Shown piece by piece: positions 20-62,492 of a DNA stretch of 64,000 nucleotides. The first letter of the stretch is position 1; each line of letters starts with the position of its first letter. The translations under genes and the position numbers were made by a program. Under the pieces are notes generated by a model. The model was not told the origin of the DNA. It did no database searches and was given only the letters and a program-made list of their open reading frames with translations. Source of the stretch: Pantoea vagans (GTDB taxonomy: Bacteria; Pseudomonadota; Gammaproteobacteria; Enterobacterales; Enterobacteriaceae); assembly GCF_004792415.1 (NCBI RefSeq), contig NZ_CP038854.1, positions 248,001-312,000 on the forward strand, written 5' to 3'.

Positions 20-1009
20 ATGAGTCTGGAAAGCATCATGACCCGTAACACCAGAATACCGCGGCCCTTCCTGTGGCGCAGTGACCTGGCGCGCCGCATT
101 GTCGGGCGTCTGCTCGGCGGTGTGCTGGTGTTATGGGTAGCCGTCACCCTGGCGTTTCTTGGGATGCATCTGGCGCCGGGTGACATTGTCAGCCTGCTGA
201 TTGGCGAGCAGATACGCACACCGGCGATTGAGGCGGCGATCCGCGCTGAATGGGGACTAAATGAACCGCTGTGGTGGCAGTATCTGCACTATCTGTGGCG
301 GGCGTTGCACGGTGATTTCGGACGCTCATACATCCTTAACACCGAAGTGAGTCAACTGCTCGCCACACAGCTGTGGCCGACCCTGAAACTCACCCTCGCC
401 GCACTGCTGGTCAGTGCGGTGTTTGCCGTGACAATCGCCGTCGCCACTGCGAATCGTCGCTGGGGCAGCCGGATCGCCAATGGGCTGGAGCTGTTGCTGG
501 CCTCCACCCCCTCGTTCTGGATGGGCATCGTGCTGCTGTTTATCTTCAGCTTTACGCTGCGCTGGTTCCCGGTGGCGGGGGACCGTCATCTCTCTTCGCT
601 GGTGCTGCCGGCGCTGTCTCTCGGCCTCGCCCAGGGTGCGGTCATCGCGCAGGTGCTGCGCCGTGAACTCGAACGCGCGCTGGAGTCGCCCTTTACCCTG
701 ACGCTACGCGCCTGGGGTGTAGGTGAAACCACCATTCGCCTGCGTCATGCGTTGCGCCATGCCGCACTGCCAGCGGTGACATTAACTGGCTGGCTGGTCG
801 GCGGGTTGCTGAGCGGGGCGGTGATCACGGAACAGGTGTTTGGCCGTCCTGGTCTCGGCAAGCTGACGGTGGATGCGGTGCTGGCGAAGGATCTGCCGGT
901 AGTGCTGGCGGTTGCCATCCTCTCGGCTCTGATTTACGTGGTGATGAGTACGCTGGTGGACATTCTGGCCCTGTGGATTGATCCGCGTTTACGTGGGGAG
1001 AGCAAATAA
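20..1009 (+). CDS. ABC transporter permease, DppB/OppB type
   Basis: Inner-membrane permease of a peptide/nickel-class ABC importer. The 329-residue protein has a first membrane helix at about residues 30-50, an N-terminal periplasmic region rich in WGLNEP/WWQY (typical of DppB-type permeases), and the EAA loop that contacts the ATPase at about residues 230-250 (ALRHAALPAV). The start at 20 is chosen because GGAGG lies at 10-14; ATG 38 is an alternative. A different reading frame is open from position 1 to TAA at 46-48, so an upstream gene may overlap this start. The stop overlaps the next start (TAATG), so the genes are translationally coupled. Substrate-binding protein and second ATPase are not in the window and may lie upstream. 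Family is sure; substrate is not. Confidence 0.9.
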   Translation: MSLESIMTRNTRIPRPFLWRSDLARRIVGRLLGGVLVLWVAVTLAFLGMHLAPGDIVSLLIGEQIRTPAIEAAIRAEWGLNEPLWWQYLHYLWRALHGDFGRSYILNTEVSQLLATQLWPTLKLTLAALLVSAVFAVTIAVATANRRWGSRIANGLELLLASTPSFWMGIVLLFIFSFTLRWFPVAGDRHLSSLVLPALSLGLAQGAVIAQVLRRELERALESPFTLTLRAWGVGETTIRLRHALRHAALPAVTLTGWLVGGLLSGAVITEQVFGRPGLGKLTVDAVLAKDLPVVLAVAILSALIYVVMSTLVDILALWIDPRLRGESK

Positions 1010-1842
1010 TGCAAGCCATCCTGCAACGTTTTTCTGTTGCGCTACCGGCCTCCGTCTGGAGCGCCATTCTGTTTCTGCTGTTGGTGGCGCTGGCAGTCGT
1101 GGCACCGCACTGGCTGACGCACAGCGATCCCATTTTGGCCGATCCGGTTAATGCGCAGCTACCGCCGTCGGCGCAGCACTGGCTCGGCACCGATCAACTG
1201 GGGCGCGATCTGCTGACGCGCGTGATCTACGGCAGCCGCTATTCGTTGCTGATCAGCGTAGCGGCGATGGCGCTGGCGGTGATCTTCGGTACGCTGCTGG
1301 GCCTGACTGCCGCACTGGCACGTGGCGTTTTAGACGAACTGCTGAGTCGTGCGGTTGATGTTATTTCAGCCTTTCCCGACCTGCTGCTGGCGCTGATGCT
1401 GATTGCGTTTACCGGCCCCGGCACCAACAACCTGATCATTGCGCTCGGTGTGGCGTCGGTGCCGCGCTTTGCGCGCGTGGTGCGCACGCAGACCTACAGC
1501 GTGATGACTTCCGGCTATGTGGAGCAGGCGCGAACCTTTGGGCTGTCGCGCTTTACGCTGACCGTTCGTCATATCCTGCCGCATGCCATCGCACAGGTGC
1601 CTGCGCTGGCGACACTGGGGCTGGGCACCGCGATTATTGGCACCGCAGGTCTCAGCTTCCTTGGCATGGGCCCGCAGCCACCGACGGCGGAATGGGGCCT
1701 GATGCTGGCGGAGGGGCGCAACTATCTGCGTAACGCCTGGTGGATTGCCGTCTGGCCGGGCGTATTTATTACGCTGACGGTGATTGCCGTGAATACGCTG
1801 GGGCGCTACTGGCAGGCGCGTTTTGAAGGGAGAGCCTCATGA
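1009..1842 (+). CDS. ABC transporter permease, DppC/OppC type
   Basis: Second permease of the same peptide-class importer, 277 residues. It begins with a membrane helix (about 17-35), then the conserved periplasmic HWLGTDQLGRDLLTR segment (about 56-70) that marks DppC/OppC proteins, five or six further hydrophobic segments, and an EAA loop at about 171-195 (TFGLSRFTLTVRHILPHA). The ATG shares one base with the stop of the preceding permease and the stop overlaps the ATPase start (ATGA), so the three transport genes form one tightly coupled unit. Pairing with the upstream DppB-like protein as a heterodimer is the family norm. The substrate is inferred from downstream monooxygenase and amidohydrolase genes, not from this protein. 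Confidence 0.92.
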   Translation: MQAILQRFSVALPASVWSAILFLLLVALAVVAPHWLTHSDPILADPVNAQLPPSAQHWLGTDQLGRDLLTRVIYGSRYSLLISVAAMALAVIFGTLLGLTAALARGVLDELLSRAVDVISAFPDLLLALMLIAFTGPGTNNLIIALGVASVPRFARVVRTQTYSVMTSGYVEQARTFGLSRFTLTVRHILPHAIAQVPALATLGLGTAIIGTAGLSFLGMGPQPPTAEWGLMLAEGRNYLRNAWWIAVWPGVFITLTVIAVNTLGRYWQARFEGRAS

Positions 1843-31562: not shown

Positions 31563-32384
31563 ATGAGCACCTTTAAAACGACCGACGGCACACAAATCTA
31601 CTTCAAGGACTGGGGCACCGGTAAACCTGTGTTGTTCAGCCACGGCTGGCCGCTGGATGCCGATATGTGGGACAGCCAGATGAAATTCCTGGCCGATAAC
31701 GGCTATCGGGTTATTGCGTTTGACCGTCGCGGTTTTGGTCGCTCCGATCAGCCCTGGACCGGTAACGACTACGATACCTTCGCCTCGGATATTAATGACC
31801 TGATCACCCATCTTGACCTGCAGAACGTGACGCTGGTGGGCTTCTCCATGGGTGGCGGCGACGTTACGCGCTACATCGGCAGTTACGGCAGCGATCGCGT
31901 CGCGGCGCTGGTGCTGCTGGGTGCCGTTACGCCTATCTTTGGCAAAACGGCAGACTACCCGCAGGGTGTCGATATGTCGGTATTCGAGGGGATTCGTGAG
32001 GGTCTGCTCAAAGATCGTGCGCAGTTTATCAAAGAGTTCGCCACGCCGTTTTATGGCACTAACGCCGGACAGACCGTTTCAGATGGCGTGATGACGCAGA
32101 CGCTGAATATCGCGCTGCTGGCCTCGCTAAAAAGTACCGTGGACTGCGTTACCGCGTTTGCGGAAACCGATTTCCGTGCTGACGTCGCGAAAGTGAATGT
32201 GCCGACGCTGGTGATTCATGGCAGCAACGACCAGATCGTGCCGTTTGAATCCACCGGCAAAGTGGCGGCGGAGATGATTGAGGGTGCTGAACTCAAGGTC
32301 TATGACAATGCGCCGCATGGTTTCGCGGTAACGCATCAGGATCAGCTGAATCAGGATCTGCTGGCGTTCCTTAACGCGCAGTAA
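31563..32384 (+). CDS. Alpha/beta hydrolase, non-heme haloperoxidase-like
   Basis: Serine hydrolase of 273 residues in the cofactor-free haloperoxidase/arylesterase group. Oxyanion motif FSHGWPLDADMW (25-36), nucleophile Ser 95 in GFSMGGGD, acid Asp in IHGSNDQIVPFE and catalytic His in APHGFAVTHQDQ near the C-terminus. ATG 31563 gives the canonical N-terminus STFKTTDGTQIYFKDWG; GAGGG lies before it. No signal peptide. Last gene of the amidohydrolase-DoxX-MFS operon; probably an ester or lactone hydrolase. Confidence 0.9.
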   Translation: MSTFKTTDGTQIYFKDWGTGKPVLFSHGWPLDADMWDSQMKFLADNGYRVIAFDRRGFGRSDQPWTGNDYDTFASDINDLITHLDLQNVTLVGFSMGGGDVTRYIGSYGSDRVAALVLLGAVTPIFGKTADYPQGVDMSVFEGIREGLLKDRAQFIKEFATPFYGTNAGQTVSDGVMTQTLNIALLASLKSTVDCVTAFAETDFRADVAKVNVPTLVIHGSNDQIVPFESTGKVAAEMIEGAELKVYDNAPHGFAVTHQDQLNQDLLAFLNAQ

Positions 32385-32420
32385 TGCAGTCTGAAGCTGG
32401 CCGCAACAAATAAGCTCAAC

Positions 32421-32533
32421 GAGCAGGTAACACGGCCAGAATTAGGAAAGCGTCCCGCGCCAGGGACGGCGCGGGCCGAGCAGTCATGGATGACAGCTTT
32501 TGCGTCTTTCCGATCTGGCCGTGTTTTCTGCGC
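32421..32533. repeat. Structured intergenic repeat, copy A
   Basis: A 113-base element also found at 62313-62424. It folds as an outer stem (AACACGGCCAGA 32429-32440 with TCTGGCCGTGTT 32514-32525), a second stem (GGAAAG 32445-32450 with CTTTCC 32506-32511), and two inner hairpins (CCCGCGCC/GGCGCGGG at 32454-32475; GTCAT/ATGAC at 32483-32494). Several base pairs differ from copy B but remain paired. It lies between a hydrolase stop and a terminator. Confidence 0.75.
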
Positions 32534-32578
32534 AGGCTCGATCTTAAAGCGGGCATTAGCCGTTGAATCAACCATCAA

Positions 32579-32606
32579 AAACTGCGCGGCGAAAGCCGCG
32601 CAGTTT
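32579..32606. terminator. Bidirectional rho-independent terminator
   Basis: A 12-bp perfect stem (AAACTGCGCGGC / GCCGCGCAGTTT) with a GAAA loop, between the convergent hydrolase and pirin genes. A-runs and T-runs on both sides suit both directions. Confidence 0.85.
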
Positions 32607-32611
32607 CTGTT

Positions 32612-33337
32612 TTAACGGGTTGGATGATTCACTTCATTCGGACGCAGATCGAATAACAGCACTTCTGCCCCGTCACCGTGACTGAACGACAGCGTTTTCT
32701 CATCACGTACCCGCGCGCCGTCTCCGGCATTAAACTGCAGGCCATTGACCCGGACACTGCCCCGCGCCACATGAATATAGGCGTAGCGATCGTCCGGCAG
32801 CGTGATCGTCTGCTGCTCATCGCCCTGGAACAGTCCCGCGTAGATGCGAATATCCTGACGCACCCGCAACGCCCCATTTTCACCCTCTGGCGAAATGATC
32901 AGTCGCAGATTACCGCGTTTATCCGCTTCGCTGACGGAGATCTGCTGATAACCTGGCGGCGTGTTCTTTTCAGCAGGCACCACCCAGATTTGCAGGAAAT
33001 GCACGCCCTCAGTACCTGAGTGGTTGAACTCACTGTGGGTCACACCACTGCCCGCACTCATCAGCTGCACATCACCGGGAACAATCACCGAGCCGGTGCC
33101 CATTGAGTCTTTGTGCTCCAGCGCGCCTTCCAGCACATAAGAGATGATCTCCATATTGCTGTGCGGATGAGCACCAAAACCCCGCCCTTTAGCCACACGA
33201 TCATCATTGATCACCAGCAGATCGGAGAAGCCCGCCTGTTTTGGGTCCCAGTAGTTCGCAAAAGAGAAGGTGTGACGTGAATTCAGCCAGCCGTGATCGC
33301 CCACGCCACGTTGCTCTGACAATCTTTGCTCAATCAT
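32612..33337 (-). CDS. Pirin-family protein (YhhW-like)
   Basis: Bicupin protein of 241 residues, close in type to E. coli YhhW (quercetin 2,3-dioxygenase activity in vitro). Typical blocks: RGVGDHGWLNSRHTFSFANYWDP, FGAHPHSNMEIISYVLEGALEHKDSMG with metal-binding histidines, and MSAGSGVTHSEFNHS. The second cupin is degenerate. ATG 33337 is chosen because AAGGGG lies seven bases before it. Monocistronic. The physiological role of pirins is unsettled; redox sensing or protection is possible. Confidence 0.9.
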   Translation of the reverse strand: MIEQRLSEQRGVGDHGWLNSRHTFSFANYWDPKQAGFSDLLVINDDRVAKGRGFGAHPHSNMEIISYVLEGALEHKDSMGTGSVIVPGDVQLMSAGSGVTHSEFNHSGTEGVHFLQIWVVPAEKNTPPGYQQISVSEADKRGNLRLIISPEGENGALRVRQDIRIYAGLFQGDEQQTITLPDDRYAYIHVARGSVRVNGLQFNAGDGARVRDEKTLSFSHGDGAEVLLFDLRPNEVNHPTR

Positions 33338-39281: not shown

Positions 39282-39355
39282 TTATTATCAATTCAGGCTT
39301 ATCTGCTCAGGCTGTTGCCGTCATCGCGATTGTAAGCGTTATTGATAACAGAGGC

Positions 39356-39568
39356 TTACATAGGAACTACGTTTGCCGCTGAAGGACCTTTAGCGCCGTT
39401 TTCAATAGTGAATTCGACCTGCTGGCCTTCGTCCAGAGTTTTATAATCGTTGCTCTGGATTGCAGAGAAATGTACGAATACATCTTTGCTGCCGTCCTGA
39501 GGAGAGATAAAACCGAAGCCTTTACCTGCGTCAAACCATTTTACTAAACCAGTCATTTTATTAGACAT
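39356..39568 (-). CDS. CspA-family cold shock protein
   Basis: RNA-binding cold shock protein of 70 residues, a single OB fold that melts mRNA structure. RNP1 KGFGFI (16-21) and RNP2 VFVHF (30-34) are intact; the rest follows E. coli CspA closely ([30 protein letters not shown]). AAGGA lies seven bases before the ATG. A gap of more than 170 bases to a possible promoter suggests a long cold-responsive leader as in cspA. The exact paralogue (CspA, B or G) cannot be decided. Confidence 0.95.
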
Positions 39569-39775
39569 CGATATTTCCTTAATTTATGAGCCACAAGTGG
39601 CGAAGATGGCCTGTCTTCCAGAAGGTTACTTACCAGGATTTTAGGAGGAGACTCATGAAGAAGGGGTATCTTGAGATATCGCTTGCACTGAGGACTGCTT
39701 TACTAAAACTGCTTTGATAAGGTCTGTGTTCCAAACCGAGGTCGCTATTAAGTCATGCCTGAGCGACTTAAGCAA
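39569..39775 (-). promoter_or_regulatory. Promoter and long 5' leader of the cold shock gene
   Basis: On the minus strand TTGCTT (39775-39770) and TTAATA (39751-39746), 18 bases apart, form a possible sigma-70 promoter. A start near 39740 gives a leader of about 170 bases, similar to the 159-base cspA leader that acts as a thermosensor. I did not find a certain cold-box. Confidence 0.4.
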
Positions 39776-62156: not shown

Positions 62157-62312
62157 GATGTGGACTGACAGATTAAGGACCAGATAGCTGTAAGAGTAAG
62201 CATGCGCAGGAAACGGACTTTCAACTCAAGACAAATCCAGCAGCAACTTTTTAGCCCGGCGCATAGCGACAATGAAAGCAGCATAATTCTGACAGCAACA
62301 CCTTAGCTTTAC

Positions 62313-62424
62313 GCGCAGGAAACGCGGTCAGAGGAGGAAAGCGTCCCGCGCCAGGACGGCGCGGGCCGAGCGTGCCATGGATGGCGGCTTTTGCGTCTTT
62401 CCGATCTGACCGCGTTTCCTGAGC
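62313..62424. repeat. Structured intergenic repeat, copy B
   Basis: Second copy of the element at 32421-32533. Outer stem GCGCAGGAAACGCGGTCAGA pairs with its partner ending at 62424 with one mismatch; then GGAAAG/CTTTCC, CCCGCGCC/GGCGCGGG (62345-62365) and GCCAT/ATGGC (62374-62385). Where the sequence differs from copy A the pairs change together. The rest of the 62110-62492 gap shows no gene. Confidence 0.75.
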
Positions 62425-62492
62425 AGCCTCGATCTAAGCGCTAACCCACCCCTACCTTCCCGGGTAAACTAAAGCGCCGCTATCGGACCCTG

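Follow-up and report, generated by a model that had tools for sequence, protein, structure and literature searches.

Sequence comparison places a structured Pantoea mini-element among the YPAL-type repeats and links its ends to an IS1182-family branch

The closest described relative of the element studied here is the YPAL/RU-2 repeat. In the passages of PMC2229807 considered, YPAL duplications are given as 3-26 bp long, at or adjoining dyad symmetry, and empty as well as filled sites are known; RU-2/YPAL as printed in the relevant passage of PMC2759123 starts TTCAGACTGCTGACAAACCCC and finishes CACTTTGTCAATAACCTCA. ERIC, REP, Correia and RUP are likewise small palindromic intergenic repeats, but they have TA targets or other partners, that of RUP being IS630-Spn1 (PMC2229807), and hairpin duplication is not among the features described for them in the passages considered. 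ERIC was rejected as an identity for the Pantoea element on account of its TA target duplication, that of the element being a hairpin. Within the IS1182 family, IS1272 reportedly targets inverted repeats by "inverted repeat-replacing" transposition; its target is said to be replaced, whereas that of the Pantoea element is duplicated.

The Pantoea element resembles YPAL/RU-2, as presented in those passages, in its ends, core order, size class and intergenic multicopy occurrence, and in having target duplication at dyad symmetry and empty and filled sites. Alignment of RU-2/YPAL with element copy L042 gave identity at 136 of 164 aligned positions (gaps omitted) and a score of 174.5, compared to 85.5 for the best of 300 shuffles. 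The Pantoea element differs in length (~215 bp vs. the 168 bp of YPAL/RU-2), in an extra spacer and other stem sequences, and in duplicating whole hairpins rather than the 3-26 bp reported for YPAL in the PMC2229807 passages. The same passages term the YPAL inverted repeats internal, whereas in the Pantoea element and in RU-2 as printed the ends themselves are inverted repeats. Judged by sequence, the element is a new, genus-level Pantoea branch of the known YPAL-type MITE, with a partner family that sequence likewise identifies. The first-pass annotation had seen no match to ERIC, REP or an IS end; the alignment supplies a known repeat family, an outcome that this annotation had itself named as refuting its reading, the ends are of YPAL/RU-2 and IS1182 type, and the small RNA Ysr224 matches below threshold. 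In a limited literature search covering passages of PMC2267715, PMC10969869, PMC2759123, PMC2229807 and PMC2864571, we found no link drawn between IS1182 and YPAL.

The element, its extent and its copies

Two copies, A and B, lie in the window, by which we mean the whole 64,000-nucleotide stretch of Pantoea vagans DNA analyzed (Table 1). The letters given there for the stem arms and inner hairpins were checked. The first-pass annotation had placed copy A at 32421..32533, an extent of 113 bp. When 35 insert-free copies were aligned with their flanks, conservation extended past both of these ends, and the full element measures ~215 bp (216 bp in L042) with the layout TCAGACTGCTGACAAACCC...core...GACTTTGTCAACAATCTCA. 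Immediately outside it, many copies have the same intrinsic-terminator hairpin on the left and on the right.

Table 1. Coordinates of the element copies and neighboring features in the window
Feature	Position	Strand	Basis or remark
Mini-transposon copy A, full extent	32387..~32577	+	Ends by eye against L072 and family alignment; left end degenerate, right end ...GTTGAATCAACCATCA
Copy A, profile match	32385-32554		
Copy A outer stem, 5' arm GCAGGTAACACGGCCAGA	32423..32440	+	Fold, covariation
Copy A outer stem, 3' arm TCTGGCCGTGTTTTCTGC	32514..32531	+	Fold, covariation
Copy A inner hairpin 1 (CCCGCGCC/GGCGCGGG)	32454..32475	+	Fold, covariation
Copy A inner hairpin 2, GTCAT/ATGAC (copy B: GCCAT/ATGGC)	32483..32494	+	Fold, covariation
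Terminator hairpin AACTGCGCGGCGAAAGCCGCGCAGTTT, surviving copy of duplicated target	32580..32606	.	Sequence comparison
Alpha/beta hydrolase gene, flanks copy A	31563..32384	+	Annotation of orthologous plasmid region; stop codon checked, start set from homologue length
Pirin family gene, convergent, flanks copy A	32612..33337	-	Annotation of orthologous plasmid region; stop codon checked, start set from homologue length
Mini-transposon copy B, degenerate ends	62270..62456	+	Matches profile positions 17-204 of 227 at 174.8 bits

A two-copy repeat, as originally proposed, is ruled out by the at least 53 matches present in the window's own genome (4.79 Mb in 3 contigs; 40 of 86 candidates scored). 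The 40 loci fetched from this genome hold 41 copies. Measured between anchor points, five of these are 228-229 bp long and carry an internal insert, one is 176 bp and the others are 143-151 bp. By a crude longest-ORF test, 27 of the 41 stand between convergent genes, with ten in ++, three in -- and one in -+ context. Matches to one subfamily were present in 38 of the 61 genomes of the genus and to another in 48 of 61, with no more than 12 candidates evaluated in each genome. When 119 genomes of the family were searched under strict filters with a covariance model, 10 had the element, its own genome included; this search, the copy count and the survey of gene position had all been proposed in the first-pass annotation. 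A search of a phage collection gave no match to the element.

No Rfam family matched at its gathering score at the element. RF02770 (the Yersinia sRNA Ysr224), which covers the same core and right end, matched on the minus strand at 37.5 bits, under the gathering score of 70, and the element is counted as a relative and not a member of that family. RF02770 exceeded its cut-off in 3 of 247 genomes of the order; in two of these three, presumably Yersinia, loci L382, L403, L383 and L404 show the same end type beside hairpins when inspected by eye. Ysr224-like cores elsewhere in the order (L386, L392, L393 and others) are mostly without IS1182-type ends, and 22 of 28 Ysr224-like loci had neither TGACAAA nor TTTGTCA within the searched spans.

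Empty sites, filled sites and terminator hairpins

The site of copy A matched 178 plasmid records; among the 60 listed, 13 were full-length (H41-H53) and 33 showed a gap of ~187 bp (H54-H86). In the four gapped plasmids that we fetched (L071, L074, L075 and L080), the hydrolase gene and the pirin gene convergent to it are separated by exactly one terminator. In contrast, the filled P. agglomerans plasmid CP016890 (L072) has a 27-bp hairpin, including the loop, on both sides of the element. The window copy and that of Lij88 are like the CP016890 insertion but without the left hairpin, so that copy A keeps only its right terminator hairpin. P. vagans C9-1 is empty at this site although its flanks are 98.4% identical to those of the window, and more distant P. 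agglomerans strains are filled. The empty site of C9-1 may reflect precise loss through recombination between the hairpins, or DNA exchange.

We compared further sites in the same manner. Three of 30 loci at the site of copy L004 have a core match: the locus in the window's own genome, which has two hairpins, and L192 and L199, which have one each. Among the 27 loci without a core match, the searched hairpin pattern occurs exactly once in 20; L197, which belongs to these 27, appears by eye to hold a divergent, insert-bearing copy. In L192, L199 and L197, which represent other lineages of the genus, family insertions adjoin the same terminator as copy L004, making it a repeated target. At the site of L012, the single locus with a core match among 30 has two hairpins, and 18 of the other 29 have exactly one of the pattern. 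Three of 30 loci have a core match at the site of L003. By eye, the closest relatives that lack the core, L210 and L212 among them, show a single hairpin there; in L211, two hairpins enclose a decayed remnant. A second plasmid site (L026) yielded only filled or rearranged relatives and no clean empty site. At the other four sites, those of copy A, L004, L012 and L003, there are relatives without the element, and the nearest of those carry one terminator by sequence comparison.

To assess duplication more broadly, left and right flanks were compared in 152 copies, of which 108 remained once near-identical flanks had been removed. The direct repeat between the two flanks outscored 99% of cross-copy pairs in 19 of the 108 (~1 expected) and 99.9% in nine; counting direct or inverted duplication, 25 passed at the 99% level. 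The flanks of the remaining 83 did not reach significance at that level in either orientation, and these may be old copies. Two of the 25 passing copies, L112 and L064, do not stand at terminators. The inverted score exceeded the direct one in ten copies (L016, L012, L015, L028, L110, L089, L043, L106, L022 and L061), in part because an inverted alignment extends into the terminal inverted repeats. Asymmetric loops that recur in direct orientation in L042, L119, L004, L123, L003, L115, L046 and L021 favor true target duplication. The sequence comparisons thus show that copies with intact flanks stand at intrinsic terminators, and that what is duplicated at the target is the terminator hairpin from one base to the other.

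Ends and targets of IS1182-type insertion sequences

A PF13751 transposase is present in 5 of the 61 genomes of the genus. The window's own genome (G000) gave no PF13751 match, and we therefore make no claim of current mobility in this strain. Genome G013 carries a 1.6-kb insertion sequence (L081) with TCAGACTGCTGAC at each end, flanked left and right by directly repeated copies of the hairpin ACAAAGGCATAACCAAATGGTTATGCCTTTGT. Its 469-aa protein is an IS1182 transposase, matching the IS1182 equivalog (NCBIfam NF033551) at 498.7 bits (cut-off 270). G013 itself had no match to either subfamily of the mini-element, and by eye the core between the element ends is not part of the L081 insertion sequence. 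L082-L085, the four remaining PF13751 elements found in the genus, were rejected as partners, as their ends differ (CAGGCTGTGTGAAAAC) and no hairpin duplicates are visible.

The L081 protein has named relatives in Izhakiella, Serratia, Providencia, Photorhabdus and elsewhere (50 loci). Of 30 PF13751 loci sampled order-wide from 247 genomes, several of them truncated at the end of a contig, three (L273, L274 and L281) had an exact flanking direct repeat of at least 14 bp, and each such repeat is a hairpin; with this proportion, the hairpin-duplication rule is not established for the IS1182 family at large. We assembled 56 loci, consisting of L081, L273, L274, L281, 32 of the 50 named loci and 20 further copies from two of the genomes with such repeats; L081 was typed to IS1182 as above, and the other loci were recovered by PF13751 or tblastn. 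A pair of terminal inverted repeats was recognized in 48 of the 56, and 33 of these 48 have an exact junction duplication of at least 12 bp, counts to which the 20 copies contribute after being selected because their genomes already showed hairpin duplication. All 33 duplications are hairpins with a symmetric stem of 6-15 bp. Choosing the best pair of ends adds L306, giving 34 copies with exact hairpin duplications of 17-34 bp; copies within one genome occupy different sites, yet are not independent samples of the family. The 14 loci with a pair of ends but no exact duplication include eight from Photorhabdus. Around position 2053 of L299, two adjacent IS1182-type copies have a duplicated terminator in common, as though the second insertion had taken place at the copy produced by the first.

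The ends of these insertion sequences are unequal, one of AAAG type and one of AACC type, and the mini-element has the same two: an ...AACCC end and an ...AAAGTC end occur in both, so that left and right can be distinguished. By sequence, the mini-element therefore has as its ends the two distinct ends of one IS1182-family branch, whose target duplication rule the mini-element also follows. It differs from the IS1182 elements in lacking a transposase gene and in its internal core, which was not seen in the insertion sequences; hairpin target duplication in turn was seen in one branch of the family. The common ends and common target rule point to this branch, suggesting that IS1182-type transposases are probably the mover of the element. 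It is very probably a non-autonomous MITE of the YPAL/RU-2 kind that borrows transposases of the IS1182 branch cutting at the base of terminator hairpins.

Fold, covariation and the proposed route of insertion

Copies A and B were confirmed at the positions first reported for them and share a fold composed of two stems, the outer one long and the inner one short, together with two hairpins. Its stability z-scores are -5.78 and -6.67, with 0 of 200 shuffles as stable. To describe covariation, we aligned 47 of 54 non-redundant copies with the two window copies, omitting seven that were divergent, nested or insert-bearing. Over these 49 rows, 93.7% of cells pair and double changes occur at 25 of 45 pairs, a level reached by 0 of 500 shuffles and far above slid controls, although the structure was taken from copy B, which favors such a result, and related copies are not independent. 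The compensatory changes noted in the first-pass annotation are thus real. Arms vary in sequence between subfamilies while complementarity is retained; the stem positions AAAG/CTTT are invariant in the alignment, and both inner loops (window 32461-32466 and 32485-32490) retain A-N-GGA or A-GGA in 44 of 49 rows.

Several side observations concern structure. The loops recall the TwoAYGGAY motif (RF01731), which was rejected as an identity: the Rfam match was weak (E 0.77), and none was listed when the three further Pantoea copies were searched at E 0.1. An extra stretch of ~78 bp with several small hairpins lies within inner hairpin 1 in L031, L032 and L034-L036, and in L073 near 1067-1146. L016 has a ROSE_2-like thermoregulator match at 956-1026 (+), with 41.9 bits under a gathering score of 65, and the window has a cspA thermoregulator match at 39319-39740 (-) with 187.2 bits.

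The pairing had originally been read as selection on RNA, and one could suppose that a functional RNA, either an sRNA or a 3'-UTR element, is kept for its structure and spread by duplication, with mobility secondary. The strong covariation, the retained loop motifs and the filing of the Yersinia relative in Rfam as the sRNA Ysr224 all speak for this, yet it seems unlikely to us, as copies lie at dozens of genome positions and presence differs between closely related strains. Nor does the mutational pattern favor it. At paired sites, G.U pairs outnumber A.C mismatches (76 vs. 27, or 54 vs. 27 once a single column contributing 22 G.U is set aside), but a similar strand asymmetry is seen at unpaired sites (C>T 41/296, G>A 31/587; A>G 38/440, T>C 3/149). 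The comparison of paired and unpaired sites thus revealed no strand preference beyond background, and since unpaired sites are similarly asymmetric, selection on one RNA strand is not supported. Strong covariation does not prove RNA function.

Covariation could also arise without selection, if replication template switching corrected the palindrome arms onto each other and so made compensatory changes in one step. Palindromes are classic substrates for template switching, and some duplicated terminators fit better when inverted (in L016, 48 inverted vs. 25 direct), but terminal repeats also raise inverted scores, and the invariant AAAG/CTTT positions and conserved loops point to some constraint; we regard this origin as possible, if rather doubtful. 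A further reading dispenses with a transposase: the element would be a passenger, and the terminator duplicates would be products of recombination at palindromes or of replication slippage there. The failure to find the partner transposase in the window's genome and the scarcity of flanking repeats in the order-wide sample are in line with it. However, exact hairpin duplicates of this kind also flank full insertion sequences that share the ends of the element, which already largely refutes this reading and makes it highly improbable. Under the preferred reading of a borrowed IS1182-branch transposase, the structured, conserved core is best explained as cargo.

In the route that we propose, a transposase of the IS1182 branch would recognize the terminator hairpin, possibly in single-stranded form or extruded into a cruciform, would cut each strand at the 5' base of the hairpin and insert the element, and gap filling would then copy the hairpin. 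Targets of 17-34 bp that span the hairpin fit cutting at its base. The U-tract would remain with the far copy on each side, which would weaken the near terminator. In the insertion sequences (as distinct from the mini-element), the T-rich tail is indeed weaker at the near copy, with 4.0 vs. 6.3 T in 10 (n = 34, p ~1e-5), as is the A-rich tract on the other side (3.5 vs. 6.3; n = 34, p ~2e-6). With the near terminator weakened, transcripts of both flanking genes are predicted to cross the element to the far terminator and to end in folded 3' ends.

Taken as a whole, the wider proposal that the IS1182 branch reads DNA shape, that transcription enters the insert from either side and that the YPAL core is a separate structured module captured by this mobility is plausible but tentative. 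If it is true, target length would follow hairpin length, both genes would be spared with the working terminator of each shifted to the far side, and the YPAL core, which is found without these ends in other gammaproteobacteria, would have been captured by the mobility system. The pointer to the IS1182 branch makes the question directly testable, and target duplication of hairpin length suggests a shape-directed insertion that may avoid damage to genes.
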